From a virus: a DNA stretch of 25,586 nucleotides. A program made the position numbers and the translations under genes. Under the pieces are notes generated by a model. The model made no database searches and was not told where the DNA came from. It saw only the letters and a list, made by a program, of their open reading frames with translations. Of the stretch, positions 2,025 to 23,990 are shown in pieces; the stretch's first letter is position 1, and every line of letters starts with the position of its first letter. The stretch is taken from positions 1 to 25,586 of the IMG/VR virus record IMGVR_UViG_3300033064_000191; one strand, written 5' to 3'.

Positions 2025-2402
2025 CTACTTGTTCGTGTTAGTGATGTAGACAAAGGGGGACCAGTGCGATACCTGCCCTACGTCATCCGTTATTCTGTAT
2101 CTAACCAATAGCTTTTCTATGATTGTGGTATTGGTATATCCACCAGACGCATAGTATGTACTTGCAGCAATGGTCTTAGTAATTGAAAACTGTGTAGCTG
2201 AGGCTGTTAAGATTGTTCCGTCAATGGCATCAAAGTCAATCGGGGACGATCCTGAAATTGTTACAAGATCGTCAACAACGTAGCCGTGAGGACTATCTGT
2301 TGTATAGACTACTGTTGATCCGACTACCGTAGCACTAGCAATATTAACTCTAGATACTACTGGAAGATCTTTCTTTAATACCCTGGCTTTTCTAACAGCC
2401 AT
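2025..2402 (-). CDS. Small tail-tip protein carrying a nested HG-x(3)-GD beta module
   Basis: This is a 125-residue protein. Residues 1-18 (basic, MAVRKARVLKKDLPVV) and 95-119 (LLVRYRITDDVGQVSHWSPF) look like one small beta domain. Residues 19-90 look like a module inserted between them: TTDSPHGYVVDDLVTISG followed by IDGTILTASATQFSI. The same module type occurs in the three preceding genes. The frame extends upstream to a TTG at 2426, but the ATG at 2402 is one base past the stop of the 476-residue gene and has GAGG upstream, so I use it. Function is unknown; a baseplate or tail-tip connector role is inferred from position. Confidence 0.7.
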   Translation of the reverse strand: MAVRKARVLKKDLPVVSRVNIASATVVGSTVVYTTDSPHGYVVDDLVTISGSSPIDFDAIDGTILTASATQFSITKTIAASTYYASGGYTNTTIIEKLLVRYRITDDVGQVSHWSPFVYITNTNK

Positions 2403-2403
2403 A

Positions 2404-3834
2404 CTATACCTCGTTTCCAAACCCAAATCTAAACTCTACAAAGTTAGTTGTGTTTTTTTGCTTAACTACTGTAGAAGCATCATTGTTTTTGAGGATTGTG
2501 TATCCAGTCAAACCATAAAGGGGATTAATAGATGTCTCATTCTCTAGACGAATTCCGTCAAGTGCTATGAAGTACTGATCAGCCTTGGAGATACCTAGAT
2601 CTGGATTTGGATTTTCTGTAGCACCGTTGTACACACAAGCAGAAATCTTTGTTGTCTGAACACCCGCCCAAGTAAAGCCATTACTCTTATGAATGTTTCC
2701 TAGCTCTTCCTCTATGACAAAATATCTATTTGCCGAAAAATCTACACCATTTTCACCATCAATAAGATCTACCTCCAGGTTTGCAAACTCTGCCCCACCA
2801 GATGTCTTCTCTGATGATACAAACTCTACTAGAACTCTTACGTGTGTTGGCTTTTCAACGGCGGAGGCGTAGTTGGATGACGGGGTTGCTCCCTGCCTCG
2901 TGACAACCGAAAAGGCAAGTTTAACCTTATCGGTTGATGCGTTGCCGTCTAGATTAAAGTTAATTCCATTAAGATGAACATGGTTTCCACTATTCAAGAA
3001 CAAATTGCTGTCGGCATCCTTTGACAAGATGGCATTATCTCCACGTATAAAAATACTATTGTTGATAAATCTACCCTTTTCTTTTCTTGATACCCTGTCT
3101 GGACTCAAGAAGATAGCGTTGTCGGCATTAGCTTGAAAGACCTGTAGGTTGTCATCAGCAATGTAGTTAGTTCCATTGTCCAAAGACCTTGTGACTACTG
3201 GGATTGCGTTAGATGATTGTGCAGAGTGATACTCCCACTTTTCCTGAGTGGAAAAAGAGTTTAGAATCTTACTATCATAAACAGTTGCTGATGGATTAGC
3301 ACTTGCCGAATATATTCCAATTTCGCTAATCTCGTATCTGTCATCTGTTGGAAGCTCTGCCGTGAGAACAACCTGTGCTACACCATTCTCAACAACGTAT
3401 CCACGAGAGATAATGGGGACTCTAAACATTTCAAAGTCTAGAGATTTTTTGTATGAAAAGTCTAAGTGAATAGTCCCTGTGGAGGATTGTTCTGCTACAG
3501 TTGTAGACGTTCTAGCTAATGAATACTCTATCTTGTTTGCCGCTGGTGTAGACGTTACAACCTGGTATCCATCTAGAGAAATTGCTGGGTTTCCAATTAC
3601 TCCTACCCCAGATATCATTACGGTATCTCCCACAGACATTCCGTGAGCAGTGCTTGTTGTCAAGGTCACTGTGCCCGAAACCTCTGGAATATACTCCCAA
3701 GCCTTTGCAATTACCGTTGACCCCAAAGAGAATCTAGGCTTTGCTCCACAACCAATGGCTATGTACGATGCATAGCTGCTTGTCTGACCAATAAGATATT
3801 TGGCAAGAATTCCTTTTCCAGTATTTGTAATCAA
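2404..3834 (-). CDS. Tail fibre / minor tail protein with DUF3751-like N terminus
   Basis: This 476-residue protein opens with MITNTGKGILAKYLIGQ and YIAIGCGAKP, the pattern of tail-fibre N-terminal domains (tail-collar/DUF3751 style) that attach fibres to the tail tip. ELPTDDRYEISEIGIYSAS near residue 160 fits the same domain. Residues 46-122 interrupt it with an HG-x(3)-GD module (STAHGMSVGDTVMISGVG). The rest is beta-rich with an Asn-rich stretch around 235-290, then EVDLIDGENGVDFS and a C terminus ending FRFGFGNEV. The start is TTG at 3834, supported by AAGGAG 5 nt upstream. It lies 9 nt after the 253-residue gene and probably contributes to adsorption. Confidence 0.75.
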   Translation of the reverse strand: MITNTGKGILAKYLIGQTSSYASYIAIGCGAKPRFSLGSTVIAKAWEYIPEVSGTVTLTTSTAHGMSVGDTVMISGVGVIGNPAISLDGYQVVTSTPAANKIEYSLARTSTTVAEQSSTGTIHLDFSYKKSLDFEMFRVPIISRGYVVENGVAQVVLTAELPTDDRYEISEIGIYSASANPSATVYDSKILNSFSTQEKWEYHSAQSSNAIPVVTRSLDNGTNYIADDNLQVFQANADNAIFLSPDRVSRKEKGRFINNSIFIRGDNAILSKDADSNLFLNSGNHVHLNGINFNLDGNASTDKVKLAFSVVTRQGATPSSNYASAVEKPTHVRVLVEFVSSEKTSGGAEFANLEVDLIDGENGVDFSANRYFVIEEELGNIHKSNGFTWAGVQTTKISACVYNGATENPNPDLGISKADQYFIALDGIRLENETSINPLYGLTGYTILKNNDASTVVKQKNTTNFVEFRFGFGNEV

Positions 3835-3843
3835 CTTTTCTCC

Positions 3844-4605
3844 TTAATACATTGTATCATTAAACACATTGGTAGAACTGGTGATTTCAATTTCTACAAA
3901 TTCGTTTTCTTGCATGTTGTCAACTTCAATAACCAAGTCTCCAGTATCCTTGTCTAGATAGATACTGTTTATGGAGCTTGAGTGCTCTCCCGTTTCTGAG
4001 TTTGCAACAGAAAAGGAGTAGTTGTCTGATGAAGCTATTGCAACATTTGTAACGTTGTACCCGCTCGGGGCAACCCCAACAACAGATATTGTGTCCCCCA
4101 CTCTAAGGCCATGTGGAGAGCTAGTTGTATAGGTTGCAGATGTTCCATTGCCAACAACTGTCACAATCTCAACATATCTCTTTTGGATAACGCTGACACC
4201 AGAGACCACTACGGTTGTTTCTTTGATAACGAAGTCATCATTAAGATCAATGTAGCTTGTTGGGAGGTGTCCATAAAGGTCTATACCTTGGCTTTTAAAG
4301 AAGAAGTCTGACTGCCCTGGCATAGGAATTAGGTTTTTTGAGTTGTATCCATTCTTTAGCTGTAGGCTATCTGACACAATCTGGTAGCTATTGTTTACGC
4401 CACTAATCAAGTCTGTTCTTGATAGATTGATAATCTCTTGCCCACCAATGTCATCAAAGATAAGATCTGCAATTGTATCGACGGGAAGACTATTATTGGT
4501 CACTAGCAAGAGGTCTGTGCTGGCTACCTTGACTGACTCCTGTGGCTTTGTTATCTTTACTGCTGTTGGGGAATTGCTCGTTGCCGATACCTCAAAATCT
4601 GACAC
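3844..4605 (-). CDS. Minor tail / tail-tip protein with nested beta module
   Basis: This 253-residue acidic, beta-rich protein has no signal peptide. Residues 35-65 contain DTIADLIFDDIGGQEIINLSR, a conserved-looking core. Residues 148-214 form a module (YTTSSPHGLRVGDTISVVG, then NYSFSV) that recurs in neighbouring genes. After it the host domain appears to resume with IYLDKDTGDLVIEV and end with NVFNDTMY. The start is GTG at 4605, overlapping the stop of the giant hub gene (TAGTG), with a GAGGTGGGG purine run just upstream. Position directly after the hub protein argues for a tail-tip structural role. I recognise the style of phage minor tail proteins but no specific function. Confidence 0.75.
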   Translation of the reverse strand: MSDFEVSATSNSPTAVKITKPQESVKVASTDLLLVTNNSLPVDTIADLIFDDIGGQEIINLSRTDLISGVNNSYQIVSDSLQLKNGYNSKNLIPMPGQSDFFFKSQGIDLYGHLPTSYIDLNDDFVIKETTVVVSGVSVIQKRYVEIVTVVGNGTSATYTTSSPHGLRVGDTISVVGVAPSGYNVTNVAIASSDNYSFSVANSETGEHSSSINSIYLDKDTGDLVIEVDNMQENEFVEIEITSSTNVFNDTMY

Positions 4606-7600
4606 TACCCCACCTCACTTACATAAACTGTCATGTTTGGACCCGATCCGTCTCTCTGGTAATCAATATTGTAAACCACAAACCTAGAGCCTTCTACGGC
4701 TACCTGATCAATACTTCCGTCATTTGTTTTGTAGTCAATCTCAATGATATCACCTAGCTGCAAGGTCGGGATTCCAAAGACGCTCAACCCTACAGATTTT
4801 CTTGGCTTTAGAATTTTAGAGATCATCCAAGACATCATCCCCTGTGCGGTATCTCTATCTTGAATGTACGGAGCATTAAGGCTAAACTGCTGTTTACCAT
4901 GTAGCATTCTGCTATTTTTTATGTCTTGGTATTCTTTTTTGTTCTTGTCGTATGAAGACACTCCCGTACCTTGACCAATTTCGATATTAGAAAAGTCTCC
5001 AACCTGAGAGAAGTATTCATCTACAGAGTATTCATGGCTTGATTGTTGTGTAAAGGTTACTCCCTGAATTCTTAGGTAGTTTCCAGTTGTGTCATCTAGG
5101 TTTAGAACACTGTCTGTATTGTTAAAGATTAAGAATTCTGCTCCGTAGGAACCTGCCATAAAACCAGATACCGTGTAGCCTTTTAGACCGTTGAATGTGG
5201 GAGACAGCTTTGCATATAGCGCTGGGTAGGCTTTGTCGTATCGAATTTTGAAGTAAGAAGCCTCCCTCATGATTGTTCCAAATTCTTCAAAGTACATGTT
5301 ATATTTTGGTGGTGACGAAGGATTGATTCCTGAAAGATAAGTTGACTGAACCAGGCCGCTCATAGCATATTTTCTAAATGAGTCATTAAGACTTATCTCC
5401 GAGTCTCCAAATACTGATGAGATTCCTGGTGTCTCCAATAGCTGAGAAGTGTTCTCGCTATAGTTTCCACCAATAGCATAGACATTTTCAAACATGCATC
5501 GACTAGAGCCTCTAACAAAGACCGCCATATTGTTATATTCGGGTAGAGGGTCGTGGTCATCAACAGTGGCTACGATCTTTCCATTAATATAAAGAAAGAA
5601 CCTTCTTGACCCGTTCAAATCCTGATACTCAACAGCTAAGTCATAGACCGATGGATTCTCTTCGGCAAACATTCTTGCTTGACCAGTAAAGCTTCCATCG
5701 TCGGTTAAAATGCTAGTTGTTCCTCCCCAAAGCTTTGTTGGTATTGCATTTTCTTGTACATACGCTGTAGCTATCGAGTTAGAGTTATAGGTCCCATTGG
5801 TTGCCGATACGTTATAGGAAAATACTGCTGCGTCGGATGTACTAGACGTTATAACAAAAGATCCATCTAGGCCATACCCAAAATTCTTTATGGTTACAAC
5901 GTCTCCATTGACCAACTCATGAGGGTCTTGACTTGTTACGGTTGCCACGTTTGCAGAAACTGTAATAGAGATAGGGACAATTGTTTTGGTATTCTTTTTA
6001 GTAGTCTTGTAGAATACTACATTGTCTAGTTGCTCATTCTCAAAATAGCTTGACGTATTGTTTTGAGTTAGAGCTATTATTTCAAAGTGGTATCCATTAT
6101 TGGTTTCTGGATTAAGAAGAACAGATATCCCACCAGAGCCACCAGAGACTGTTATGGCATTATCTGTAGAGATTGCTTGAGACACATCGTAGTAGACACT
6201 ACTTCCGACTGGTGTCTGTCTGTCCTGTGTACCATCTATTCTTCCAATGATTCTCATTCGAGTTCCAAAGTGTGAGAACTTTTTGGACGCTACCCCCTCA
6301 ACATCTGAGGCTAGGGGCTTGTATACGTAAGAGAGAAAGTCTATTGGGTTAACAGCTTCCGCATTGTCATCTCCTGTAGGAAACGATCCACTAGCGGGGC
6401 CAGTGAAGATTAGTGCTGACGACTGAATAGTTCCAGATTGAGTAGACAGCATAGCATTTGCATCTGTCTCTGTAACTGTAGAACTTGTCATAAAGTTTTT
6501 AAGAACACCCGTTCTGGAAGCTGCAAGAGCTAGCTTGTTGTTATTAGAACTTACCCCAGCCTTTCCTATTGTAGATGAGGGTGACGATGGTGCCTTGTCA
6601 AAGATACGAATAGAGTTTGTTACATAGTCTTGGGTTTCTGGGTCAATGTATCCGTCTAAGATTGGAGCAATCAATGGCTGCGTTATCGTTATGACATCCT
6701 CACCAATAGTGTTGTCTATTGTGGACAAGACTCTAGTATTTCCTGATCCAGTGTTTCCCGTACCCTGAAAAATCTCAACAATATAGTTAATCTGAACACG
6801 ACTAATATCTGGAACTACAATTCTTGAATTTAAGAAATCTGAGGTTACGGCACCATTGTTAACATCTTCTACGCTAGACGAGACATCCAGAAGCAGTGAG
6901 AATGTTCCCACAAGTGGCTCTGATGATGAGTGATGAGATCCCCCAAGCCTTGAAGATATTAAAAAGTTTTTATTATTTAAGGTTTCTTTTACATAATACT
7001 TTGACTGGCTACCGATACCGTAAGGAAGGTATGTTGGTGACTCAAAGTAGATCCTGTTACCAGATTCTAGCCTATGATTCTTTACTGTTGAGACAACTAG
7101 AGGGTCAGAGACCATGAACAATCCGTAAGTCCCCGTCCCGTCTGTTCCTGGGGTTGGCCTGACAATAGAGCCTCCGTTTCTTGTTTCTGATAGCTGAAAG
7201 ATTCCAGAAGAGTTATTAGCATAGGACACGTAGTAAATTTTATTTGCAAGGATTCCCTGGGGCAAGGTGCTTCCAGACGGAGTAGTTAAGAACACCTTGT
7301 CGTTCACCTGTAAACTACCCATTGTCTGGGTAAACTTTATGGCCTGCCCAGCTGTAGTTGTTGTGTACGTTGCCGACGGAACGTTTATGTTTGCATTCTT
7401 AGTCACAAAGTTTTTGTCATTTACTGTACCAGACACCCTTACGACTGAATTGTCTAGGTTACAAATTGAAAACTCAGAAGTACTAACGACAGTCTTTACC
7501 TTATAGCTCTTTGATACGTCTATTCCTGTTGGCAGCTTTCCATTAGTAGAAAAAGAGATTACGTCATCCACTACAAATCCGTGCCCAGGTTTTTCAATTG

Positions 7601-10600
7601 CTTGTGGATTACTGTCAAAGTTTATACCAAGAATTTCTGACTTTACGTTATTAAGGATTATCTGGCAAAGGGAGTGGACTCCCGCCCCTGCTCCTGTAAA
7701 GGAAACGTTAGCCCCACCTCTTGAAGAGGAAAAAGATAGTTCATCCAGACTTGACACGTCACTGACATAGTAAACGCTATTTGCGGATATGCCAGCTGGT
7801 AGCGTTCCTGTTGTAACAAAGTATATGGGATCTCCAACCTCAAACCTGTGGTTTGGAATAGAAACAGTACCGCTCACAAAGTTAACAATCACTGTGTCTA
7901 TGTTAGTTAGTACTTTTTGGTTTACGGTATATTTTGTTGGCTCTGGACTGTCTGTAAAATTAATCTCAGTTCCATTTGGAGTCTCTGAAACCTTAAAGCT
8001 GTTTGCTGTAGACTCAATAACATAGTAGACCTTACCCTTAGATATTTCAGTTGGGAGAGATGTATAAGAGTCAAAACTTACCAAGTCGCCATTTTCAAAT
8101 CCATGATCTGTAGAAGCTATAACGTTGCTTCCAATATTAATGTTGGCGTTTACCAATCTCATCACAACGTCTGAGGCAGTTTCATCTGCAATAATTGGCA
8201 AAAGGTTTTCTGGGTTCTGAACCGAGAACGTGCTGTTGGACAAAATCTCTTTTACGGTATAGACTGTGCCAGCCACAAAGGGTGCGACGTTTTCTGTTAT
8301 ATAGAAAGCATCACCGATAGATAACAAGTGGTCAAAGGATGCCTGGATTGTGCTTGAATACTGTGTAGTGCTGATGCTTAGAGATGTAAGGTCTACTTCT
8401 TTAAAGTTGAAGTCACCCTTATTTGCAGTGTCGGTGTAGATGCCAGAAATAGTAAAGTCATCACTTTTTCCAAACAAGTACTTGGACTCCATCTTGACAC
8501 CACGTACTGGTGCAGTATCAGGATTCTTGTTTGTCCAATAATTGTTAACACCAGCTTCGTGCTGAGTTATTTCTGTTCCAAACTGTGCTCGACCATGCTT
8601 TGCTACATCTCCAAGCTTAAGGACCGTTGTGTCCTCGAACACTCTATAGTTTGGCTCGGAGAATATTCGAACAAGCCCTGTTGGATAGATCTTTCCATTA
8701 AACGGTAGCTTAGAGAAGTAGTAGGAGTATTCTTGAGTATCTGTAATCCAGACATCTCCAATGCCAGCAATGTTAAACTGTACAGCGTCATACTTTATGA
8801 TTTCTCCATTGGCAAAGAAGTATCCGTTGTACCTGCTAATCCAGTAAATGCCCTCTCCAAAATTCATAGTGTTATTGGTTATCTGTAGGGTTCCATCAAC
8901 AACTGCTACAAAGGGAATCGTATTGCTTAATGTTGAGTTTAGAGGCATGGCAGAAAGAGAGTATGCCGACTGAGTGCTTGACTCGTCGTTCTGTGTTTTT
9001 GTAACTTCGCTCCCAGACACCTCCCATAGTAGCACTGGCTTATAGATCCATGTTTTGTCTTGGTCAATTAGGCTTGCTTGTCTAATTGATCCATAAGTCT
9101 TTTGAATGTACCGCGAGTTGTAGGCAATAATTCCATCATTATATATATTGCTATCTGTAGAGCTTACAGATATAATATTTGATAGCTCTCCGTTTACTGC
9201 AATGTTCTTGTTTTTTAGAACAGTGTCTGTGCCACCAACCTTTGAGGATGAGCGACTATAGTCTTTTGTTCCTCTCAAAACCATAGCTGTTGCTCTTTCG
9301 TCTGCGCTATTTGGCAACATGTATTCTTTGTTCATGAGAACAAAGTTATTGTATTCGTCAAAGAACATAGCCGTTTGAGTTGACAGCGCTAGATCTTGCA
9401 ATACCTCTGCTACAGATCTATCTGGTGCTATAAAGAAATATGGGATGATAGGCTCTACTTCACCAGGAATCTTTTTAAAGGTGTAGTTTGAGAATCCTAC
9501 CGCATCAAATAGCAGAGACAGTGCGTAGCTTAGGGATACGTTGGATGCCAAGATCTGTGGAGCAGTCTCAGACTCAAAGTAAAAGAAGAAGTCTCGTAGG
9601 GTTACGGACACTGCCCTAGTTTCCTTATCAACTTCTGGGAACTTGTCAACATACATTGTTTTGATTGGTATGTAAAAATTTGGTCTTGCAACGATAACGT
9701 CATTCTCATATGTGGGAACATCTTTAATAATTTCGTAAAACTTAAACTGTATGTTTTTTGAAACAAGGTAGTTTGCAATAATGCTGTTTGAGTTATTACT
9801 ATTAAAAGCATTTTCATTATCAAACATTGACAAGTTACCTGTTGCAGCTAGTAGCTGGCCTACGGGCATCCCGCTTGTCCCTAGGTCAGAAGACATCTTG
9901 GTAATCCCATAATTTGTTACTAGGTCAGATACGTTAACCGCTAGTCTGGGGGATAGCTCTATAAGATCTAGAGAGGCATCTGCGCTAGCCATTGTGTCTA
10001 CTACAAGCCTTAGTCCTGATATATACTGAAACTCACGAAATGATTCTGCTTGAGTAATAGGGTCTAGGTATTGTGGAGTGTTTACTAGCTCTGTTACCAT
10101 TCCAATGTCGCTAGACAATGTTTGGCTATACTTTGACCATCCGTATACGGGAACAAAAGATTGGTACCCTGCCCCAGTATAGATGTAGTACTCTCCAATG
10201 GACGTTAAAACATTTCTGACTAGATAGGCATCTCCCACCTCTGCTATGGCTGGTAGCTGAGCAGGAACTTGGTACTCTCCAAGATATTTAAAGATACTTC
10301 GGTACTGCTCAGTAAGAACCAAGCCATAAGCCAATTCCAAAAACCCATCTGATCCAAAAGACTCATCGGTGTCTAAGAAGGATACAGCATCCACCCAAGC
10401 GTTGTTATGAAGGGTCTGAACCTTCCATGTGCTAGGCGTGGTCTGATTGGACAATCCATAGAATGGATCTGGGTAAGACTCGGTAGAGTTTGTGAATGGT
10501 CCAAGATCTACATTACCAACATTTGTTTGTACCTTTATGGTAATTCTGTTTGTAGGCACAGTATTCTTATATACCACGAATGGTGCCGCGTCATCGATGG

Positions 10601-11135: not shown

Positions 11136-11768
11136 CTAAACCTCTTCCATAGAGATATTAACATCCCAGTAGTCAAAGTTATTTGATCCACGCTTCTGTA
11201 TGGAATGTGAAAAATCAGAGAAGAAGACCTCTACAACGTCATTGTATTTCTGTAGGTTATTGTACTCATCTGTTGCCTTAAAATTTGAGTGCTTGTCGTA
11301 TGCAAGATATAGCCAGAATGATCCTGTATACCTTTCATACCAGTCTAGAAGATCTACCCCGCCAGCACCACCATCTGAGGTGTAGCTATATGACTCCACA
11401 GACGCTTGCCCACTGTCATTAAAGGCTGGGTCAATGTCAAAAGATCTTGAGGGTAGCATTTGCCAAGCTGTCGATATGGAAAGCTTATCTGCAATATGGT
11501 AAGAACGCATTCTTCCATTTACAGTTCTTTCACGTTTTTCAATTCTTGTAGTCTTTAAGTCTAGGGCTTGTCTGTTGTCATCTGATAGAATGATAAACTC
11601 ATTTCCACCAAAAGCAAATCCAGCAGAGTCTACCTCTTGTCCTAGTGGAATGTAGTATGGCTTTTCGTCAATAGTTTCTACTGTACCTGGATTGTTCGCT
11701 AAGAGTAGCGCCTGTGGTCGTCCATATTTTTTACGACCCGCCATGTAGTCTACTGTTGCAACAACCAT
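11136..11768 (-). CDS. Minor tail protein in distal-tail (Dit) position
   Basis: This 210-residue soluble beta-rich protein contains FAFGGNEFIILSDDNRQAL, the basic segment KTTRIEKRERTVNGRMRSYHI, and a second half with aromatic strands (LLDWYERYTGSFWLYLAYDK; FDYWDVNISMEEV). It lies between the tape measure and hub genes, where siphophages encode the distal tail protein that joins the tube to the hub. Sequence alone does not prove the Dit fold. The ATG at 11768 overlaps the tape-measure stop codon (TAATG), so it is translationally coupled to it. Confidence 0.7.
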   Translation of the reverse strand: MVVATVDYMAGRKKYGRPQALLLANNPGTVETIDEKPYYIPLGQEVDSAGFAFGGNEFIILSDDNRQALDLKTTRIEKRERTVNGRMRSYHIADKLSISTAWQMLPSRSFDIDPAFNDSGQASVESYSYTSDGGAGGVDLLDWYERYTGSFWLYLAYDKHSNFKATDEYNNLQKYNDVVEVFFSDFSHSIQKRGSNNFDYWDVNISMEEV

Positions 11769-14700
11769 TAGAACCTATTACTCCGAATTCTTTGTGAATC
11801 AATATTGCTAATTTGTTCTCTAACGGCCCTCGCAATTCTGGTTGGGTCTGCATCGGTAGCAACATTAACACTTACACTATAATTATACACTGATCCGTCT
11901 TTGTATGTGCCGTCATTTATCTTGCTAAGGTTCTTTGCTCCGAACTGGTCTGTTGCAGATTTGGTCATTACAAACTCACCAGCCTCAAGCATAGAAGGAA
12001 TCTTGTCGTTGCCCCTAGCAAATGCCTTGGCAATGCTTCCTCCTTGGCTAGCGTAGACCATTCCACCCTTAGCGTAGTACTTAAGGTCGAAAAGCTTTTT
12101 CCATGTATTGGGACCAGAGATACCATCTCTTGCTAGACCATTCTTAGCTTGGAATGATGCCACAGCGTTGTATGTCTTCTGCCCAAAGATACCGTCAACG
12201 GCAAGCCCTGCTCCACCCTTGTTTAGTGCTCTTTGTAGTAGAGATACTGTTGATCCACGAGAACCCCAGCGAACTTGCTGCTGTGCCGTGAAAACTCGTG
12301 ATGGTGCTGCTGATGGAGCAGAACCTGGTGCTTCTGGGTCTGCTGGTGATTCGGAACTGCCAGATGATCCGTAGGCGGCTGTCAAAAGGTTTACAGCATC
12401 GAGGGCATCCATAATTGCTTTACGGTATGCCTCAGTGCTAGTTCTGGCAACATCAATCTGTGTTTGAATAGATGCCCACTGTTCTTGAGTTTTACCTAGT
12501 ACGGTCAGTGCATCTATTTGCTTTTGCTGTTCCTGATCTAGAAGGTCTAGTCTGTACTTCGCTGGTGCAATCTGGTTGTTTTCAATTTCAGAAATTTGCT
12601 GCTTAAGATCTAGAACTCTTTGTTCTATCTCTTCTCTTGTCATTCCGTTGTTACCAGTTAGTGCATTCACCTCTGCAAGTCTAGCTGCTTCCAATGCCGC
12701 CTTTTGGTCTGCCATGTTATTCGTGGCATTCTGAGCTTGCATGTCTTGAGCAGCAGCAGCAGCAGCGGCAATGTCTCCACGACTTAGAGCCTCGGCAAGA
12801 CTCATTTGAGCTTTTTGCTGGCTGATTAGTCTGTCGTTGATTGCTGCAACCTTATCTAGAGCGGCTGCTTTTTTGTCGTAAGACTTATTGATTGCAGCTT
12901 CTTTGTAGGCTATTCTGTCAAGCTCTGCGCCAAGGTCCGTTAGTCCACCAGGAGCATTTTGAATGTCGTCGATGATCTTCTGAGCAGCCTTCATGGAATC
13001 TTCCAGTGGAGACTTCTTGCCTAGAAAACTTTCGTTTATCACCGATGTCTGTGATGAGAACAGTCCTGATACATTTGACATACCCGCTGATACGATACCC
13101 TCAAGACCAGAGACTGTTGTCCTTGCAAAGTCCTCGGCTGAGGCAGCAAGCGCTCTTTGGTTGGCTATGAGTTCACGAAGCTCTTTTGAGTTTGCCGCTG
13201 TCGCAATAGCCGAAGCTACTTGTGCATCGGCAACCATCTGCTCTGCTTCTGCTGCGCTCATTCCAGCCGCACGAAGCTTGTTGTATGCTACTACTTGATC
13301 TCTTGTTGCTGCTAGAGTTTGCTGTTGCTTGACTGCAAGCTCTCCTAGAGTGATAGCTGCGAGAGCATCAGTAATAGACTTAGCTAGATCCTTGAGTCCC
13401 GTAATCATACCCGAAGAATTAAACGTAAAGAGTGTCTTCTTTTTCTTTTCCCATTCTTCGGGGGGCATTCCAAGAACCATAGAGATAAGTCCTTCGCTAG
13501 CACCCGCTGCACGAAGAGATTGAGACATGCCACCAAAACCAGCAATGGCTTTTGATCCACCAAATAGATTTGACAAAGATTTTGCTGAGGCATCCCACCC
13601 CTCTGTTAGTGATAGAGTTGCTTTACGAACTTCTTTTAGCTTGGCAATTATAGAGTCCATAGATGATGTTTCTTTAGCTGCGGCTTGTGCTCCGCCACCG
13701 CCACCACCGCTATCAGGAGAGCTTGGGATTACGACTGGAGCAACGGGAGCATTTACGGCAGAGTTTGCGGCGTTTAGTCTTGCTTGGTCTCCTGCTAGCA
13801 TTTGTGCGGCTTTGGTGTATGCCGATTGCCCCCCTGCTCTTAGAGAGTTAGAAGCTCCTGGCCGATACTTTGCGTCATACATTTCTCTAATTCTTGCACG
13901 ACCATCCTCTGTACCAGCATCAATGCTTTCTGAAATAGTTAGATATGTTGCAGCGTAAACCTTTTGCTGGTCTGGTGGAAGGCTATCGTAATATGCCAGT
14001 TGAGCAGAAGTCATTTCAAATCCTTGAGACTTGAAGTATGTGTTTACCTCAATAGATGTTTTAACTCCTGTTGCCAAAAAGTCGGCAAAGTCACTAATAG
14101 ATTTTTTAATTTCTTCTAGCTGCTCCTTGGCATTGCCATCATTAATATCAATAATGACACCTTGAGATTTTAGGTCATTGGCAAGACTTATAAGGGTGTT
14201 CAGATCTTCTACGTAGACTGCTGGGTCATCACTTCCTGAGGCCATTCTTAGCTGTGTCTGAATTGTAAGCTCTGTTGCTCCTGCATTAGTAAGAGAAGAG
14301 ACTAGGTTTATGGTTGCCTGATCTCCAGCAGTTTCTAGTAGTGCTGTATATTTTGCTTGAAGCTCTGTATCTCCAGACAGGGCGTTTACCAACATCGTCG
14401 CCGCCGCTGGGTCAATTTCTCCAGAGCTTATTTGTAGCTGTAAAGCTACCTGGGCAGACTCATTTGCAATGGCTGGAGCTACCGCATCATAAGCTTTTGT
14501 AGCCATAGCTGCGCCAGTTTTGTCATCTTTGTATGTTACATCTGTGATCTGTGCCTTGTTTGCATCATCATAAACGTTGTCATTTGTAGAGTCCCCACGA
14601 ATGGCAAGCTTTGTTGCCATAGCACTTTCGACTGTTTGAGCATTAAGAGTATTCTGTTCTTTTAATGCGTCAGATTTTGCCTGTTCTAGAGTTACAATAT

Positions 14701-17700
14701 CCTCAAGAATTCTTTTTCTGTCTTTCTCATTTGTTGTCTGATCTAGCAAGGCTTTTTTAGACTTAATTTGTGCATCATACTGCTGGTTGATAACATCAAC
14801 CATACCAAGACCCTGACTGTATAGGTTTGAATAAATGTCTGTCGCCAATGTTGCAGTCTCAACATTCTTTTTTTGTTGTTCTACAAAAGATATTGTTGAA
14901 ACTGTTGCTGCGGCGATACCTATACCAACAAGAGCAATCCCACCAGCTACCGCTCCAACTCCAGTAGCCGTAACACCTGTTGCGACGGTGGCGGCACCCG
15001 CTAGTCCAGCCAATGCCCCTGTTCCAGCAGCGATTGTGGGGGCCAGGAGTGCTGCCCCCCCCACTAGCGCAGTCATAGAAACGGCGGCACCAACCAGAGG
15101 TCTACCTCCATCTGCGAATAGGGGGTTTAACTGTCCATCAGCGGCCAGCTGTCCTACACCTTTAGCTTGTTTCTGAGACCTATTTGTTATTTCTGATGTT
15201 ATTCTTAATGGATCTGTAGATAGGTCTTCTCCATTAGGACCAAGAATTTTGTTTAGCTCTGCATTGATGCCAATGGTAAGGTTTCTATTTTTTAGAGATG
15301 CCCCAAGAGCCGAAGAAATGTTATCTGCCTGTTCCTTGGACATGACTCCCTGAGCAACAGCTGTTGAAAGTTGTGTTGCTACGTTTTGAGCAATCTCAGC
15401 AGTGCCCCTACCAGCAGAAAGCTGCTTATTTACATCAGCAACAAAAGCTTTTCCTGGATCTGTAGCCAAGAACGATTGTCCCTCTGCAAGTTTTTCGTCT
15501 TGTCCTGGCTTTAGGTTTGCAGCGGCAAGCTCTTTTTCTTTTTTACGTATTTCTGTAGCCGAAGCCTTGCCTGTTACTTCTGAGAACCCCTTAAGCTTGT
15601 CCGTTGTCATTGACATGGCGTTAGCCATTTCTTGACCACTCTTCTTGGCATCGTCAAACGACTTAACCGCAAAGAATATTCCAGCCGCAAGAAGTCCTAG
15701 TACAGCTATTACAGCAGCTATTGGTGCTGGCATCATGGTAAATAGTGACGCTACCGCCGAGATACCCATGATTGGCCCCATTAGACCTTGAGCCGTTTCT
15801 CCAACCTTTCCAGGAATCATTGATCCAGCCATGACTAGTCCAGAAGCAGCCATTCCTGCTCCACCAATTTTAGACTTTAGGCCACCACCCATTCTATTTC
15901 CAGCGGAATCTGTTGGACCAAGAAGCATATTCTTTGACTTAGCTGCTACCTGACTGGCTACCCGACTAACAGCATTACCAAAAGTCTTAGTAGCATTAGT
16001 CATAGCATTAAGAGCTTTTGGAACAGTGTTCCTAGCCTTGATAGCAAAGCCAGTGATTGCTGGGCCTACCCCGAGAGCAAAAGTCTTTACGCTTTGTGCA
16101 GCCTTTATTGTTGCTGTCTTTGTTGTATTCATGGAATCAATAAGTAGCTGTGTAGGTCTTCTAGCATTGGTTAATGTTCTTGCCATGTTCTTTATATCTA
16201 CCTCGATTAGTTTAATAGGGGCAAAGCCCTTTACTAAGCTGTTTCTTACCGAGTCCATATTTATTCCGCCTGGCAACATTTTTCGTACCCGCTCGCCTAC
16301 GAACTGCTGTTGTCCAGCATTAGCAGCGCGAACAACTGGAGCAGCCACCATTCCAAAGGCAGGATTATTGTTCTTTTTAGCAGAAGCAATTGCTTCACGT
16401 TTTTCAGCAATAAGGGTTTTGTTTGTCTGACGCTCAAGAGCAATCTCGTCAGCAGCAGCCTTTTCAGCTAAAGCTTTTACCTCTGTTTTTCCACTCTTGA
16501 TTCCTTCAATAGCCCCATCAGCAATATTCTTTCCTGCTTGCTTTGCTTCTTTGGAGGGAGATGCAGATTTTGAAGCTTCGTTCATTCCTTTTGCAAATTC
16601 TTCGTCTACAACTTGTCCAAGTTTTACACCTTGTCCACGAGACAACCTGGCCGCAAGCTGTTGTTCTGCTAAGGTGTTGCCTCTTCCTGTTTTTGGCTCT
16701 ACATAATTATCTGTTAGCTGACTTGCCGTTAAGTGAGCAAATGTTTCCTTGCTGGATAGTGGAGAGTTGTTACGCTTAGCTGCTTCATAGGTTGTCGCTG
16801 CTCGAACCTGTGCTTTTTTGCTTCCGCGTCTTTCATTTGAAATTCTTTTAATAACAGAATTTCCACCTCCAATTTGTCCTATTTCTGTTCTAGGAACTCC
16901 AACACTGGTTAGGTCTGCTGATTCTGCATTAACAAGCTTTCTAACAGAAGTAGTTAGATTTTGAGAGGCTTCCGCAGAAAGCTTTCCTTCCTGCTCTAGT
17001 TTTTTAATGTGTTGAACCATTTTAGGATAGGTCTTTTTACCTATTTCTGCAACATCAGTAATTTCATCAGTAATTCCTGATCTATAAATTTTAAGAAGAT
17101 CATCGTTGGCACTAGAAAGCATGTCTGATGTTGAGGCTAGCCTAGACTTTGTTTGTGCCCCTACTCCAGATGCAGATATAGATCCTGCGTTTATTGCTCC
17201 AGCCCACCTTGAAGCAACATCTGGAGAATTCTTGAGCCAGTCTAAGTCTGCTCCAGGGCCACTTTGAGTGTTTCCTGGGGCATACATTGCCTGTGGAGAA
17301 AAGTTTTGTGCATACCCACCACCAGTTACTCGACCAACAGTTGCCAGCTTTCCAGTAACAAATCCAGGAATATTACCAGCAATGATTCCATTGATAAGTC
17401 CACCATACTTCTTGGACTGCTTTGCAGGAATAACTGTTTCGCCATTGGAAAGCATAGCGGGAATAGAATCAGACGTACCCGTTCCTGGGCCTCTAACCAC
17501 ACCACCTGTAGCCATTTTCTTTGCACCTCTGGCAACGGCTGTCGCTGGATTAAAGCCTCCCTGTACAGCTATGGCTCTTGTGTATGCAGCAGTTAGGGCG
17601 TTGATTGCCCCAGCCTCAGAAGTAAAGGTCTGTGTAAGTCTCATGTGTGTCTGGTCTAGTGAAGCCGCAACGCCAGCTGCTGTTAGCTGCTCTTGAGAAA

Positions 17701-19498
17701 GATAAGATGTTTGCTCACCTAGAATTTTTGAGCTTGTTCCCGTTCCTCTAAAGATGTTTCCTATCAGGAGGAACATTTTGATTAAGTTGGCGGCACCGTT
17801 AGCTATGAGTCCAAATGTCATTAGGATGATTGGACCAATACCCGCAAGAGCCGTTACCGCAATAATCGTAAACTGCTTGGCTCCGTCACCCCAGCTATTG
17901 AATCCATCAATGATTGTCTTTCCCCATTCGATTACAGGGGTAATAGCCTTTAAGAACTCTTCACCAATTGGTGCAAGAGAAGCTTTGAATTTTTCCATTG
18001 ATGCCTGGAACTTGTACATTGGGGAATCCGCAATGTTTCCAAGCTCCTTTTCTGATAGAAGAGCTAGCTCAGCAGTAGTCTTATTAGAAAGCTCTAGAAC
18101 TCTCTGTGCTTGTGTTCCATCTTTAATTACGTTCTGGAAAAGAGTTGAGATTCTTGCAAACTGGAACTTTCCAAACATAGTCTCAATGGCTTGTGCTCTA
18201 TTGAGTGGGTCTAGTCCGTCTAGCGCTGTGGCTAGATCCATGACCATGCCCTTAGCGTTTCCAGCATTCTTTGTTACTAGATCGTTAATGTTGATGTTGA
18301 ATCCAGCAAGCATCTTGGTTGCTTCTGATGTGGGGTTAATGATTGAAGCCATACCAGACTTTAGAGCGTTAGCTCCTTCCGATGCGTTAATCCCACCTTC
18401 TTTCATAGCTGTAAGGAAGAATGCTAGATCTTCTACGTTTCCACCGAGCTGCTTAATAACTGGACCAGCTTTTGGAATAGCAATCGTTAGGTCATCAATA
18501 CTTGTTACAGTTTGGTTTTCCACTGCGTTAAGGAAGTCAATCTTGGAGGCTAGCTCTTCTGTAGCTGTACCAAAAGCAGAGGTCAGAGATGTTGTAGTCT
18601 CTAGAGCCTGTTGGTGCTCTACTCCACCAAGAACAGCTAGTCTAGATGCCTGGGTTACTTGTGCTAGTAGTTCTACACCTGTTCTACCCATTGCTGCTGC
18701 ATCGGCTGCAAGTCCTAGTGTCTCTTCTACGGATACCCCGTATTTTGCAAACTGAAGAGCTAGCTCTTTTACCTGCTCAACCATAGCGTCTGCTTCTGAG
18801 GTAGGAGTAAAGGTGTCTCCATAGACTCGCTTAAATCTAATAGCTTGCTCTTCAAGCTTCATGAACTCTCTACCCGCTGCTGCTGCCGCAATTCCTAGAG
18901 GAATAGAAAAACCAACCATAAGCTGACGACCAGCCCATTGAGTGTTCTTACCAAAGTTTAGAAGGTTGGTTGAGCCTTGCTTAGCTAGCTGATTAAAGAT
19001 CTGTGTCTTTTGTGCAGCAATAGCTGTCTGGGTTCCCAGATTTTTCATATCTAGGGTCAGAGGTCGTACAGCCATAGACTGTAGAGCACCGTTGGCATCT
19101 CTGCCCATCTTGATATACTGAGTCTGTAGAGTCTTTACTCTTTCTCTTGCAACCTTATCAATGGTGCTAAATTCACTCTTGAAGAGCTTACCGAATGTCT
19201 TAGTAGATGCCCCCGCATAGCGAAAGTACTCTCCCATTGAGAGCTTGTTCTTTTCCAAAGAAGTCGTAAACGACTCTGAGGTTGTTTGAATCCTCTGCAT
19301 AGAAGCCGAGAACTTGCCAGATGTATTGATCTGATTCATCAAGTTCGACTGCATAGAAGCAGACGTAGCAGCGCTGGCAGCGCCACTTTTTTGCATTGTG
19401 GAATGGAATGTTGATATTTGTCTCTGTAGTCCCTTAAGAGACGCTAGAGCACCAGTTGTATCAATATTTACATGAATATTGGATTCAATATCAGTCAT
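11768..19498 (-). CDS. Tape measure protein with C-terminal peptidoglycan-binding domain
   Basis: This is a 2576-residue, mainly helical, Ala/Gln/Lys-rich protein. The N-terminal part is coiled-coil-like. Residues about 185-457 match the phage tail tape measure (TP901 core) pattern, for example GREFMKLEEQAIRFKRVYGD and AAAMGRTGVELLAQVTQASR. Hydrophobic segments occur near 540-582, 1215-1280 and 1460-1540. SPSKEAKQAGKNIADGAIEG (about 1000) is a common tape-measure motif. A Gly run sits near 1930. Residues 2404-2472 form a PG_binding_1-like domain (VRWGSRGSTVSLLQRAL, VDGIFGQKTYNAVASFQ). GG-x-V...IPxMLxxGE motifs occur at about 660-690 and 2475-2515. It sets tail length and probably leads DNA entry through the envelope. 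The upstream SD is weak (GGGTGGTG). Confidence 0.95.
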   Translation of the reverse strand: MTDIESNIHVNIDTTGALASLKGLQRQISTFHSTMQKSGAASAATSASMQSNLMNQINTSGKFSASMQRIQTTSESFTTSLEKNKLSMGEYFRYAGASTKTFGKLFKSEFSTIDKVARERVKTLQTQYIKMGRDANGALQSMAVRPLTLDMKNLGTQTAIAAQKTQIFNQLAKQGSTNLLNFGKNTQWAGRQLMVGFSIPLGIAAAAAGREFMKLEEQAIRFKRVYGDTFTPTSEADAMVEQVKELALQFAKYGVSVEETLGLAADAAAMGRTGVELLAQVTQASRLAVLGGVEHQQALETTTSLTSAFGTATEELASKIDFLNAVENQTVTSIDDLTIAIPKAGPVIKQLGGNVEDLAFFLTAMKEGGINASEGANALKSGMASIINPTSEATKMLAGFNININDLVTKNAGNAKGMVMDLATALDGLDPLNRAQAIETMFGKFQFARISTLFQNVIKDGTQAQRVLELSNKTTAELALLSEKELGNIADSPMYKFQASMEKFKASLAPIGEEFLKAITPVIEWGKTIIDGFNSWGDGAKQFTIIAVTALAGIGPIILMTFGLIANGAANLIKMFLLIGNIFRGTGTSSKILGEQTSYLSQEQLTAAGVAASLDQTHMRLTQTFTSEAGAINALTAAYTRAIAVQGGFNPATAVARGAKKMATGGVVRGPGTGTSDSIPAMLSNGETVIPAKQSKKYGGLINGIIAGNIPGFVTGKLATVGRVTGGGYAQNFSPQAMYAPGNTQSGPGADLDWLKNSPDVASRWAGAINAGSISASGVGAQTKSRLASTSDMLSSANDDLLKIYRSGITDEITDVAEIGKKTYPKMVQHIKKLEQEGKLSAEASQNLTTSVRKLVNAESADLTSVGVPRTEIGQIGGGNSVIKRISNERRGSKKAQVRAATTYEAAKRNNSPLSSKETFAHLTASQLTDNYVEPKTGRGNTLAEQQLAARLSRGQGVKLGQVVDEEFAKGMNEASKSASPSKEAKQAGKNIADGAIEGIKSGKTEVKALAEKAAADEIALERQTNKTLIAEKREAIASAKKNNNPAFGMVAAPVVRAANAGQQQFVGERVRKMLPGGINMDSVRNSLVKGFAPIKLIEVDIKNMARTLTNARRPTQLLIDSMNTTKTATIKAAQSVKTFALGVGPAITGFAIKARNTVPKALNAMTNATKTFGNAVSRVASQVAAKSKNMLLGPTDSAGNRMGGGLKSKIGGAGMAASGLVMAGSMIPGKVGETAQGLMGPIMGISAVASLFTMMPAPIAAVIAVLGLLAAGIFFAVKSFDDAKKSGQEMANAMSMTTDKLKGFSEVTGKASATEIRKKEKELAAANLKPGQDEKLAEGQSFLATDPGKAFVADVNKQLSAGRGTAEIAQNVATQLSTAVAQGVMSKEQADNISSALGASLKNRNLTIGINAELNKILGPNGEDLSTDPLRITSEITNRSQKQAKGVGQLAADGQLNPLFADGGRPLVGAAVSMTALVGGAALLAPTIAAGTGALAGLAGAATVATGVTATGVGAVAGGIALVGIGIAAATVSTISFVEQQKKNVETATLATDIYSNLYSQGLGMVDVINQQYDAQIKSKKALLDQTTNEKDRKRILEDIVTLEQAKSDALKEQNTLNAQTVESAMATKLAIRGDSTNDNVYDDANKAQITDVTYKDDKTGAAMATKAYDAVAPAIANESAQVALQLQISSGEIDPAAATMLVNALSGDTELQAKYTALLETAGDQATINLVSSLTNAGATELTIQTQLRMASGSDDPAVYVEDLNTLISLANDLKSQGVIIDINDGNAKEQLEEIKKSISDFADFLATGVKTSIEVNTYFKSQGFEMTSAQLAYYDSLPPDQQKVYAATYLTISESIDAGTEDGRARIREMYDAKYRPGASNSLRAGGQSAYTKAAQMLAGDQARLNAANSAVNAPVAPVVIPSSPDSGGGGGGAQAAAKETSSMDSIIAKLKEVRKATLSLTEGWDASAKSLSNLFGGSKAIAGFGGMSQSLRAAGASEGLISMVLGMPPEEWEKKKKTLFTFNSSGMITGLKDLAKSITDALAAITLGELAVKQQQTLAATRDQVVAYNKLRAAGMSAAEAEQMVADAQVASAIATAANSKELRELIANQRALAASAEDFARTTVSGLEGIVSAGMSNVSGLFSSQTSVINESFLGKKSPLEDSMKAAQKIIDDIQNAPGGLTDLGAELDRIAYKEAAINKSYDKKAAALDKVAAINDRLISQQKAQMSLAEALSRGDIAAAAAAAQDMQAQNATNNMADQKAALEAARLAEVNALTGNNGMTREEIEQRVLDLKQQISEIENNQIAPAKYRLDLLDQEQQKQIDALTVLGKTQEQWASIQTQIDVARTSTEAYRKAIMDALDAVNLLTAAYGSSGSSESPADPEAPGSAPSAAPSRVFTAQQQVRWGSRGSTVSLLQRALNKGGAGLAVDGIFGQKTYNAVASFQAKNGLARDGISGPNTWKKLFDLKYYAKGGMVYASQGGSIAKAFARGNDKIPSMLEAGEFVMTKSATDQFGAKNLSKINDGTYKDGSVYNYSVSVNVATDADPTRIARAVREQISNIDSQRIRSNRF

Positions 19499-19516: not shown

Positions 19517-19828
19517 CTAACCTATGGAAGGCATATCCGTAAGCTTAACTCCAGAAGCAGCCTCCACAATTTCATAAACTGTAGGTAGGTCGAGAAGATC
19601 CTCTAGCGCTGCTAGGTCTTCGGAAAGTTCAGGCTTGTACTGCTTCATAGCAATCTGGACACACTCCATGAGGATTGTCATAGACATATCATTGTCTGCT
19701 GCAACATCCGCGATGTCTTCAAACTTTTTCATAAAAGGACGAAGAAGAGAAATTCTTAGGGGTCGTACAGAAATTACGCTATTGTCTACAAGGGTAATTT
19801 TCTTATCTTCATTTACAGTTGTTGTCAT
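19517..19828 (-). CDS. Tail assembly chaperone, stand-alone G-like paralogue
   Basis: This 103-residue acidic helical protein aligns along its whole length with residues 1-98 of the preceding chaperone. Shared features are LLRPFMKKFEDI against YLREFMLYFENV, the identical MKQYKPE, and [LI]EDL-x-D-[LI]-x-T-[VI]Y-x-I-[VI]E. It lacks a T-like domain and ends 18 nt before the tape measure gene, so there is no room for a frameshifted extension. It probably coats the tape measure during tail assembly. It has its own extended -10 box and a near-consensus AAGGAGG 6 nt before the ATG, so strong expression is expected. Confidence 0.85.
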   Translation of the reverse strand: MTTTVNEDKKITLVDNSVISVRPLRISLLRPFMKKFEDIADVAADNDMSMTILMECVQIAMKQYKPELSEDLAALEDLLDLPTVYEIVEAASGVKLTDMPSIG

Positions 19829-19834
19829 TGTGTT

Positions 19835-19841
19835 CCTCCTT
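19835..19841 (-). promoter_or_regulatory. Near-consensus Shine-Dalgarno (AAGGAGG)
   Basis: AAGGAGG lies 6 nt before the ATG at 19828. It is among the strongest ribosome binding sites in the window and contrasts with the paralogue at 20565, which has none. Confidence 0.8.
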
Positions 19842-19854
19842 AAGGGTACTATTA

Positions 19855-19863
19855 ATTATAACA
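19855..19863 (-). promoter_or_regulatory. Extended -10 promoter (TGTTATAAT)
   Basis: TGTTATAAT on the minus strand would start transcription near 19848. This gives a leader of about 20 nt containing the AAGGAGG. No clear -35 box is present. It sits in the 50-nt gap between the two chaperone genes. Confidence 0.5.
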
Positions 19864-19868
19864 TAGAA

Positions 19869-19886
19869 GGGATTTTTATTAATCCC
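19869..19886 (-). other. Small hairpin over the stop of the fused chaperone
   Basis: GGGATT and AATCCC form a 6-bp stem with a 6-nt loop that includes the TAA stop codon. The following tract (TTCTATG) is a poor U-run, so it is at best a weak terminator or processing signal. Confidence 0.3.
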
Positions 19887-20565
19887 ACTTTTCATATGAG
19901 ATACCGTTGCCAAGACCAAGACCTGCCTGAGCACCCTTAGTTCCCTGGAATGTTAGAATATCATTAGGGTCAGAGGTAGCTCCACCGCTGAACACTCTGG
20001 CCTTCATCTCTTCCCACTCGTTATTCTTTCCACTATTCTCATCTAGGTCTACACCCTGAATAGCAGCAGCAAATTTTTTGTCTTGGTAGTCGTTGTCACG
20101 CTTAGCTTCTAGTGTTGCTGTTATCTCTGGTATAGATAGAGATAGCTCAAGCTCGTCATAGTCTTTCCAGATGCCCAGCAAAAATAGCTCAGACTCTAGC
20201 TTAGCTAAGTCAAACTCGTCCCAGCCACCACCTTCGGCTGCTTGCTTTGCTACTGGCTTCTCGTCTTCTTCTGGTGCCTGCCTCATCTTAATGTCGGCAG
20301 CGATCTCGATTATGGCATAGATTGTTTCTATGTCACACAAATCTTCTATCTGTTCTAACGTTGCAATCTCTGGCTTGTACTGCTTCATGGATACCGCCAC
20401 ACATTGTGCGAGTGCTCCCATTGCCTCGTCATCATCTTCGGCAGTCTTTACATTTTCAAAGTACAACATAAACTCTCTTAGATACTTTACCTTTAGTGGC
20501 ATTAAGAGTATCTTTTGTCCATCGAGTAGCTGTACAGTATGCGTATTATAAATCTTAGTTGCCAT
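19879..20565 (-). CDS. Tail assembly chaperone, fused G-T type in one frame
   Basis: This is a 228-residue protein. Residues 1-95 are the G-like domain shared with the next gene. Residues 96-114 are a charged/Gly linker (EEDEKPVAKQ, EGGGW). Residues 115-175 look like a T-domain (KLESELFLLGIWKDYDELEL, SIPEITATLEAKRDNDY), followed by an acidic tail to residue 228. In lambda-like phages this two-domain protein arises by a -1 frameshift; here both parts are continuous and no slippery heptamer is needed. It is expected to recruit the tape measure to the tube protein. The ATG at 20565 has no Shine-Dalgarno sequence; an extended -10 box lies 5 nt upstream. Confidence 0.85.
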   Translation of the reverse strand: MATKIYNTHTVQLLDGQKILLMPLKVKYLREFMLYFENVKTAEDDDEAMGALAQCVAVSMKQYKPEIATLEQIEDLCDIETIYAIIEIAADIKMRQAPEEDEKPVAKQAAEGGGWDEFDLAKLESELFLLGIWKDYDELELSLSIPEITATLEAKRDNDYQDKKFAAAIQGVDLDENSGKNNEWEEMKARVFSGGATSDPNDILTFQGTKGAQAGLGLGNGISYEKWD

Positions 20566-23052: not shown

Positions 23053-23990
23053 TAAAAAATCCCTGGTTTTATCTGATTGTTCTTGTAGTTGCTTAGGATC
23101 TTATCTACGATAATGTTTCCCGTTCCTTGCAAAAATTCTGGAGCAAATCTAACATCAAATTGGTCAGTACTATACTGAGTAATTAATCTTTTCCAGTAGT
23201 CGTTGTTTCCACATTTGATATCTTCAATGAGATACTTTGAAGCTATTTCTACGTCTGTAGGCACAGTCTTGTATCCAGCATCTAGAATAACGATGTAATC
23301 ATACCCCTTTGGAAAGGCTACACCAGAGCCAGAGCGACCGTAGGAACCAAGGTCTCCAACGGCCCCAGGAATTCTTGTGGGATTATACTCCAACCTGTTA
23401 TACTCAACATTTGGAACATCTGCTGTTACATATCTATAAATGCTTGAGTTATCTAAAGTAACCTTATAGGTGTACATCCAGTCTATGGTCGTATCTTCTG
23501 CATCGTAAACTAATACGCTATTTTCATATACTTTTATAACCTTATTTGCGTAATGCCAAATAGGTAGGTAGTCCGTTCCTTGTCCCACATGCTGAATAAC
23601 TAGCTTTTGATTATAGAATCCACCACCAGTAACTCCGAGATAGGCATCAATGATTGATCTTGCTACAATCTCTAACTCTTTGTATTCTGCAATCTCTGAT
23701 GCTGTTGTCCCCAAGGTGTTAGGGTCTACGTATGGTCTAGACACTGTTAAGTTTTCATCTATGACTATTTCTCCTGGAATGTCGTATACCCGAAAAAGAA
23801 AATCTCTGTCAAACTGTAGTTTTGCTCTTGGTAGTTGATAGGTAATAACAGAGCTTCCATCAGACGTGACATCTATATTTTCAAACGAATGATCTACAAG
23901 ATCTTCTATGTAGATGACGTAGTTAGTATCAGCGTCTGGCACACCCCATGTTGTTGTGATTGGGTATGGCGGAACTCTCAAAATGTCCAT
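23052..23990 (-). CDS. Head-tail connector (adaptor)-like protein
   Basis: This 312-residue protein has an N-terminal beta domain of about 95 residues (MDILRVPPYPITTTWGVPD ... DRDFLFRVYD), a helical segment at about 125-150 (IAEYKELEIVARSIIDAYLG) and a connector-like part with GGGFYNQKLVIQ and GQGTDYLPIWHYANKVIKV. The E-x(2)-AR-x-IID and G-x-GTDYLP features are typical of gp6/gp15-like adaptors that bind the portal. The extra N-terminal beta domain makes it longer than many adaptors. The frame extends to a TTG at 24014, but I prefer the ATG at 23990, which follows the previous stop by one base (TAATATG). AAGGAG lies about 13 nt upstream, which is rather far. Confidence 0.65.
   Translation of the reverse strand: MDILRVPPYPITTTWGVPDADTNYVIYIEDLVDHSFENIDVTSDGSSVITYQLPRAKLQFDRDFLFRVYDIPGEIVIDENLTVSRPYVDPNTLGTTASEIAEYKELEIVARSIIDAYLGVTGGGFYNQKLVIQHVGQGTDYLPIWHYANKVIKVYENSVLVYDAEDTTIDWMYTYKVTLDNSSIYRYVTADVPNVEYNRLEYNPTRIPGAVGDLGSYGRSGSGVAFPKGYDYIVILDAGYKTVPTDVEIASKYLIEDIKCGNNDYWKRLITQYSTDQFDVRFAPEFLQGTGNIIVDKILSNYKNNQIKPGIF

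Follow-up and report, generated by a model that had tools for sequence, protein, structure and literature searches.

Here, we describe a small protein module that, in a family of environmental phages, has very probably entered surface loops encoded by adjacent tail genes on repeated, separate occasions. The stretch of DNA analysed (the window), an IMG/VR virus contig of 25.6 kb, carries a structural operon of siphophage-like type on its minus strand. It is likely that all of these modules have one small beta-barrel fold, common to the barrel of phage endosialidases, the I-domain of the P22 coat protein and the FCCH domain of UBA1. The comparison of filled and empty insertion sites suggests that phages add and swap this module to change the contacts of the virus particle.

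The operon and its relatives

The order of genes on the minus strand is major capsid, gp105, gp320, gp150, gp221, gp181, the tail protein gp230, gp228 and gp103, followed by the tape measure (2576 aa), gp210, the hub (2176 aa), gp253, gp476, gp125 and gp149. The arrangement of tape measure, gp210, hub and two small or medium proteins is common to Streptomyces phages of Stanwilliamsviridae, and the module is absent from members of this family with matching gene order, which served as an outgroup. Megablast of the module region against known phages gave no match. The comparisons below rest on aligned orthologues from 80 hub loci and from three collections of gp476 relatives; one relative, L032, has a capsid protein 85% identical to that of the window.

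Several other features of the operon were observed. Next to the module-bearing genes, gp149 (1540-1989) is similar to an H-type lectin domain, with a Pfam H_lectin match (2e-4) that falls slightly short of the cut-off, and is a plausible candidate receptor-binding protein. The gp103 and gp228 proteins (19517-20565) are mutually related (35-43% identity via their L032 homologues); on sequence grounds the pair is a tandem duplication, sited where tail assembly chaperones usually are. At the C-terminal end, the tape measure has PG_binding_1 in the window (11768-19498) and a CW_7 cell-wall repeat near the end in L032 (240-9341), so that cell-wall-binding domains appear to have been swapped between the two; the L032 tape measure also has a HAD acid-phosphatase-like domain (aa 1014-1152).

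Modules detected in the window

A preliminary description of this DNA had reported the module in four consecutive tail-tip proteins. We built an HMM from 28 modules, all of other phages, and this window-free profile recovered all four, in gp476 (aa 45-125, E-value 1e-11), gp125 (aa 26-104, 9e-10), gp253 (aa 144-217, 8e-10) and the hub (aa 1720-1794, 5e-8), with no match in the tape measure, gp210, gp149, gp320, gp221, gp230 or the major capsid. The 11 window proteins contain the strict motif [TS]xHGx3[GD]Dx[VI] four times, where residue shuffling predicts 0.002 (about 2000-fold excess), and a looser motif eight times against 0.06. The count of four modules stands as far as it goes, but a tandem array in the hub (aa 894-1517) had been overlooked; the window total is about eight, because this array adds four modules as well as two diverged candidates. 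Two of the inserts have different bounds from those first proposed, that of gp253 being larger (aa ~119-211, nt 3973-4251) and that of gp476 covering aa ~38-120. The features are as follows.

2115..2351, minus strand: gp125 module (125/133-aa protein, aa 26-104), between the N-terminal '..KKDLP' segment and '..LLVRYRI..SHWSP'
3475..3723, minus strand: gp476 insert (aa 38-120; module aa 45-125), HMM 1e-11, AlphaFold2 pLDDT 81
3973..4251, minus strand: gp253 insert (aa 119-211; module aa 144-217), HMM 8e-10
5331..6338, minus strand: modelled part of the hub host region (aa 1600-1935), predicted fold LamG/ConA-like (AlphaFold2 pTM 0.71, Foldseek)
5757..5987, minus strand: hub site C module (aa 1717-1793) in the LamG/ConA-like domain, HMM 5e-8
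6585..8456, minus strand: hub site B, occupied by 624 aa (aa 894-1517) that comprise the tandem module array and a ~98-aa non-module domain
6885..7121, minus strand: array module, hub aa 1339-1417, no significant match to the window-free profile (0.7)
7137..7397, minus strand: diverged candidate module, hub aa 1247-1333, weak (E 0.05)
7398..7643, minus strand: array module, hub aa 1165-1246, a less strong match to the window-free profile (E 0.02)
7659..7913, minus strand: array module, hub aa 1075-1159, by profile
7917..8171, minus strand: array module, hub aa 989-1073, by profile
8199..8438, minus strand: diverged candidate module, hub aa 900-979, weak (E 0.16; 0.07 with the window-free profile)
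9198..9206, minus strand: empty hub slot A (aa 644-646), where L032 has an 82-aa module
23463..23507, minus strand: empty gp320 slot (YDAEDTTIDWMYTYK), where L032 has a module

The E1 FCCH-like label given earlier is detectable in Pfam (E1_FCCH, PF16190), but below threshold, with 22.8 bits at best in the hub, 15.6 in gp125 and 14.8 in gp476 against a curated cut-off of 29.5, and no match in gp253. The Pfam scan of the window's tail-tip proteins returned no endosialidase family. As described before, DNA identity among the window copies is low: none of them matches another at E<1e-4.

Filled and empty slots among relatives

The preliminary description had read each flanking sequence as one domain interrupted by the module and had suggested aligning homologues to look for versions lacking these segments. 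Such versions turned out to be the majority: about 98 relatives of gp476 and about 95 of gp253 lack exactly the inserted segments, rather than all carrying them as an integral domain, and about 100 of the hub have neither the array nor the module at the LamG site. In the gp476 relatives the flanks close up across the gap, with GCGAKPL, 6-12 aa and DYSxK running straight into LDFEMFRVP and the 83-residue insert absent; in those of gp253 the flanks close up around the missing aa 119-211, and the host loop varies from 16 to 42 aa across module-free relatives. For gp125, the relative L084 (67 aa) is module-free with both flanks joined directly.

Among 195 gp476 orthologues, about 90% of which have no module, all 21 internal insertions of at least 35 aa are the module, and they occupy four slots, at core positions ~40, 72, 141 and 324. 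These slots coincide with length-variable loops of the module-free orthologues (permutation p=0.009). A tree of the gp476 host columns (75 rows) requires 4+4+1+1 gain/loss changes over the four slots, seven presence/absence changes being forced by well-supported branches, a count that by itself leaves the direction unfixed. The gp125 family (188 rows) gave a similar picture, in which every internal insert of at least 35 aa is the module, at two sites, the N-terminal linker (core position 21, the slot of the window) and a later loop (core 79); the one exception among large inserts is a C-terminal extension of L301. The gp125-family protein itself reads as FN3-like, which is our own reading rather than a database match.

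Aligned with 103 relatives, the hub shows three main sites of insertion, A, B and C. Site A holds a module in L032 only. Site B holds 624 aa in the window, 345 aa in L084 and 98 aa in L032, and is empty in about 100 relatives; the L032 segment consists of the ~98-aa non-module domain alone. This domain (IVEIFQGTG..., window 6585-6878, hub aa ~1420-1517) is found at site B with or without the array, and L037 has a 90-aa insert that looks related to it. Site C, the LamG slot, has a module in the window and L032, and about 100 relatives lack it. In this slot, at core position 1058 of the hub, L043, L061, L064, L117 and L119 have an unrelated module of ~69 aa (..VGDRxLLSxQ..ENGYYKVT..) with weak PHROGs links to other virion proteins (phrog_30390, phrog_24595), and thus one slot takes two module families.

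Modules were found in L032 in the hub (A and C), gp253, gp476, gp125 (two), gp320, the tail-collar fibre and one further ORF, and four filled slots are common to this genome and the window. The gp320 protein of the window is a precise empty allele of the module-bearing gp320 of L032, a connector-region protein. The tail-tip placement proposed earlier therefore fits the four window proteins but not L032, where connector-region gp320 and the collar fibre have modules as well. In a separate case, L322 (Actinomycetia phage DSL-LC01, a lake actinomycete phage), three modules lie in two consecutive genes after the tape measure, annotated just as minor tail proteins and without a match to those of the window outside the modules.

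Predicted fold of the module

AlphaFold2 was run on the gp476 module together with 35 other modules and gave a five-stranded model (pLDDT 81, pTM 0.71). Its best Foldseek matches among solved structures were the phi92 endosialidase (4hiz; prob 1.00, TMq 0.60), the P22 coat protein, EndoNF and UBA1 (prob 0.84, TMq 0.50, E 0.34). Separately, a sequence-profile search of the PDB found 4hiz (6.7e-5), the P22 I-domain, EndoNF (1v0e, 0.013) and the FCCH domain of UBA1 (2lzj, E 0.005). Foldseek E-values are weak (0.019 at best for the module and 0.002 for the hub segment), but the fold matches carry weight because two methods and two modules agree. Among viral structures, the module matched baseplate J-like proteins, tail sheath, fibres, baseplate wedge and tip J proteins, and the fold is therefore in wide use among phage virions. 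Matches to TAL effectors in the profile search were discarded as an artefact of many 19-residue repeats of 1-5 bits each, and single-module phmmer searches of the PDB gave nothing reliable.

The hub segment was modelled without module rows in the alignment, because adding them to the LamG alignment misaligned them (pLDDT 73.5, which is moderate; pTM 0.71). It matched endosialidases and UBA6 (prob 0.99)/UBA1, and also galectins (TMt 0.46-0.58), a thrombospondin C-terminal domain and the VvEG16 glucanase; we take the former group to represent the insert and the latter the host domain. The galectins align over the hub host region across a module-sized gap, and the LamG-like nature of this host domain, as first proposed, appears to hold by predicted fold. 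With respect to the structural comparison of all four proteins, the gp476 and hub models find the same solved structures, whereas the gp253 and gp125 modules are assigned by sequence profile only.

Recency and probable route of insertion

The closest comparison is between L238 and L164, whose flanking DNA is 91-100% identical and of which only L238 has a module in slot 40 of gp476, a difference compatible with either gain or loss. About ten loop codons were replaced at this junction and none duplicated. In L165 and L166 the same slot contains a different module, with 38% aa identity to that of L238, between flanks that are ~88-90% identical, and in L059 slots 40 and 324 are both empty. Neither target-site duplication nor terminal repeats were found at the L238/L164 and L059 junctions. 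In L032, the gp125-like gene and the collar fibre match over 270 nt at 78% DNA identity, with nothing similar outside the module; judged by sequence, this common copy may reflect either duplication inside the L032 genome or two acquisitions from a single source. When lineages are compared, two modules that occupy one slot are roughly as dissimilar as modules of different slots, and the GC content of modules does not depart from that of host genes.

We also considered the module as the recombination breakpoint between L238 and L164 and rejected it. Within gp253, some 300 nt upstream of the module in slot 40, their identity steps from ~70-85% to at least 95%, and the breakpoint is thus near the module, not at it; by this sequence criterion it is a mosaic breakpoint inside the module-bearing operon, at the gp253-gp476 boundary. 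Ordering donors by a module tree was abandoned, as the tree had too few columns and low sequence identity and was poorly resolved. The earlier proposal that the insertions are old or came from different donors suits the window copies but not the family as a whole: 'old' is unfit there because some module differences (L238/L164, L032) are recent.

Since neither target duplication nor terminal repeats were evident, we infer that insertion occurs by ordinary (illegitimate or short-homology) recombination, with a few loop residues replaced. The ends of the barrel would lie close together, and a loop insertion would therefore be possible without breaking the host fold. One barrel domain has very probably entered virion-protein loops of the hub, gp253, gp476 and gp125 repeatedly and independently, and in L032 those of the connector-region protein and the collar fibre too.

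Possible functions and alternative explanations

What the modules do is less certain than how they are distributed. One tentative proposal, with somewhat less than an even chance of being right, is that they act as accessory adhesion patches, which would contact host-surface glycans and tune binding. In K1F (EndoNF), the endosialidase barrel provides one of three binding sites for polysialic acid and is a hotspot of host discrimination (PMC12632334), and inserts in Dit promote adsorption to exopolysaccharide-bearing hosts (PMC10688798). Against this role, one L032 insert lies in a connector-region protein, which is unlikely to touch the host. The same fold also serves capsid assembly in P22 and ubiquitin transfer in E1. 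The same insertions could instead have a structural role, stabilising the tail tip or spacing subunits without host binding, as inserted coat I-domains stabilise some capsids (PMC7602432). We regard this as rather unlikely: the profile and fold match to the P22 I-domain, the connector-region module of L032 and the fact that most relatives do without any module all speak for it, but different modules occupy one slot between genes 88-90% identical, and modules cluster in the genes for the distal tail, which follow the tape measure, so that changing outside contacts fits better than a fixed assembly role. On balance we would favour glycan contact over the structural role, and the contact-altering decoration function suggested earlier seems plausible.

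It is improbable that the modules are neutral passengers in permissive loops; their sites are length-variable loops and most relatives lack them, as such passengers would predict, but nearly every large insert is one fold, not random sequence, and both reading frame and core motif are kept. We give very little credence to an ancestral integral domain lost many times. The four slots common to the window and L032 and a gain/loss count compatible with either direction would agree with it, but the module is absent from ~90% of gp476 relatives and from the Stanwilliamsviridae outgroup, its same-slot copies across lineages are about as unlike as those of different slots, and six sites are in use within two genes. 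Dedicated movement of the kind seen in mobile elements (homing, retro-copying or site-specific insertion) appears the least probable of all: the L032 copy common to two genes and limited to the module, the hub array and the recurrence of insertion are in its favour, but the L238/L164 junctions show neither target-site duplication nor terminal repeats, and loop residues there were replaced, not duplicated.

Relation to known systems

Domain shuffling in phage tails is already known and is ongoing in tail proteins (Smug et al. 2023, PMC10684548, which makes no mention of FCCH); what appears new here, within the literature searched, is one fold as a slot-based, recurrent insert, a concrete and slot-resolved case of general phage protein mosaicism. 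The nearest parallel is the 'evolved Dit' of lactococcal skunaviruses and others, likewise a domain inside a siphophage baseplate protein that is absent in 'classical' homologues; its inserts are of several types, sometimes doubled, carbohydrate-binding and promote adsorption (PMC10688798). That system concerns one gene and BppA-like CBMs, whereas the module has another fold and, as we read it, several genes, about ten slots and tandem arrays; its hosts are the hub, proteins encoded after the hub, gp320 and the collar fibre, and not the distal tail protein (Dit).

The endosialidase beta-barrel (EndoNF/K1F, phi92), the best fold and profile match, is a fixed part of a tailspike enzyme, while the module proteins lack the catalytic beta-propeller. 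The P22 I-domain is likewise a six-stranded beta-barrel that was inserted genetically into a structural protein of a phage, and the module shares with it a loop location and the existence of insert-free homologues; however, the I-domain sits at one position in the capsid with a role in assembly and stability, and the module in several tail genes and slots. The host proteins of most relatives have no module, which speaks against a general need for it in their folding, assembly or stability. The relation to E1 FCCH (PF16190) consists of sub-threshold profile matches and tentative fold matches to UBA1/UBA6, with no E1 context or function. Ig-like domains are also promiscuous beta-domains, and many phages have them on several kinds of tail and head protein (survey PMC7602432), but their fold is different. 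In the open-access literature searched, which left subscription journals outside, we found no description of PF16190/FCCH in phage tail proteins, nor any account of a tail operon in which this fold recurs as an accessory inserted slot by slot.

Claims of domain shuffling in phage tails come mostly from comparisons between distant proteins. Here, one slot is seen empty or filled between flanks 91-100% identical, or filled with dissimilar members of the same fold, and one copy in two genes of one genome adds to this evidence. Such close-range comparisons bring within reach of experiment the question of whether tailed phages adjust their host contacts by installing a generic binding fold in several tip proteins. 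They also come with a structural identity for modules that databases leave unnamed or place below threshold as 'E1 FCCH'. A bolder version, which we consider unlikely, is that this phage family draws on a common stock of one barrel fold, which fills exchangeable slots of the tail operon (empty, module a, module b or tandem) and passes between genes and genomes within short times, the loaded set fixing host-surface specificity. If true, slot loading would be a combinatorial surface-contact system spread over several proteins.
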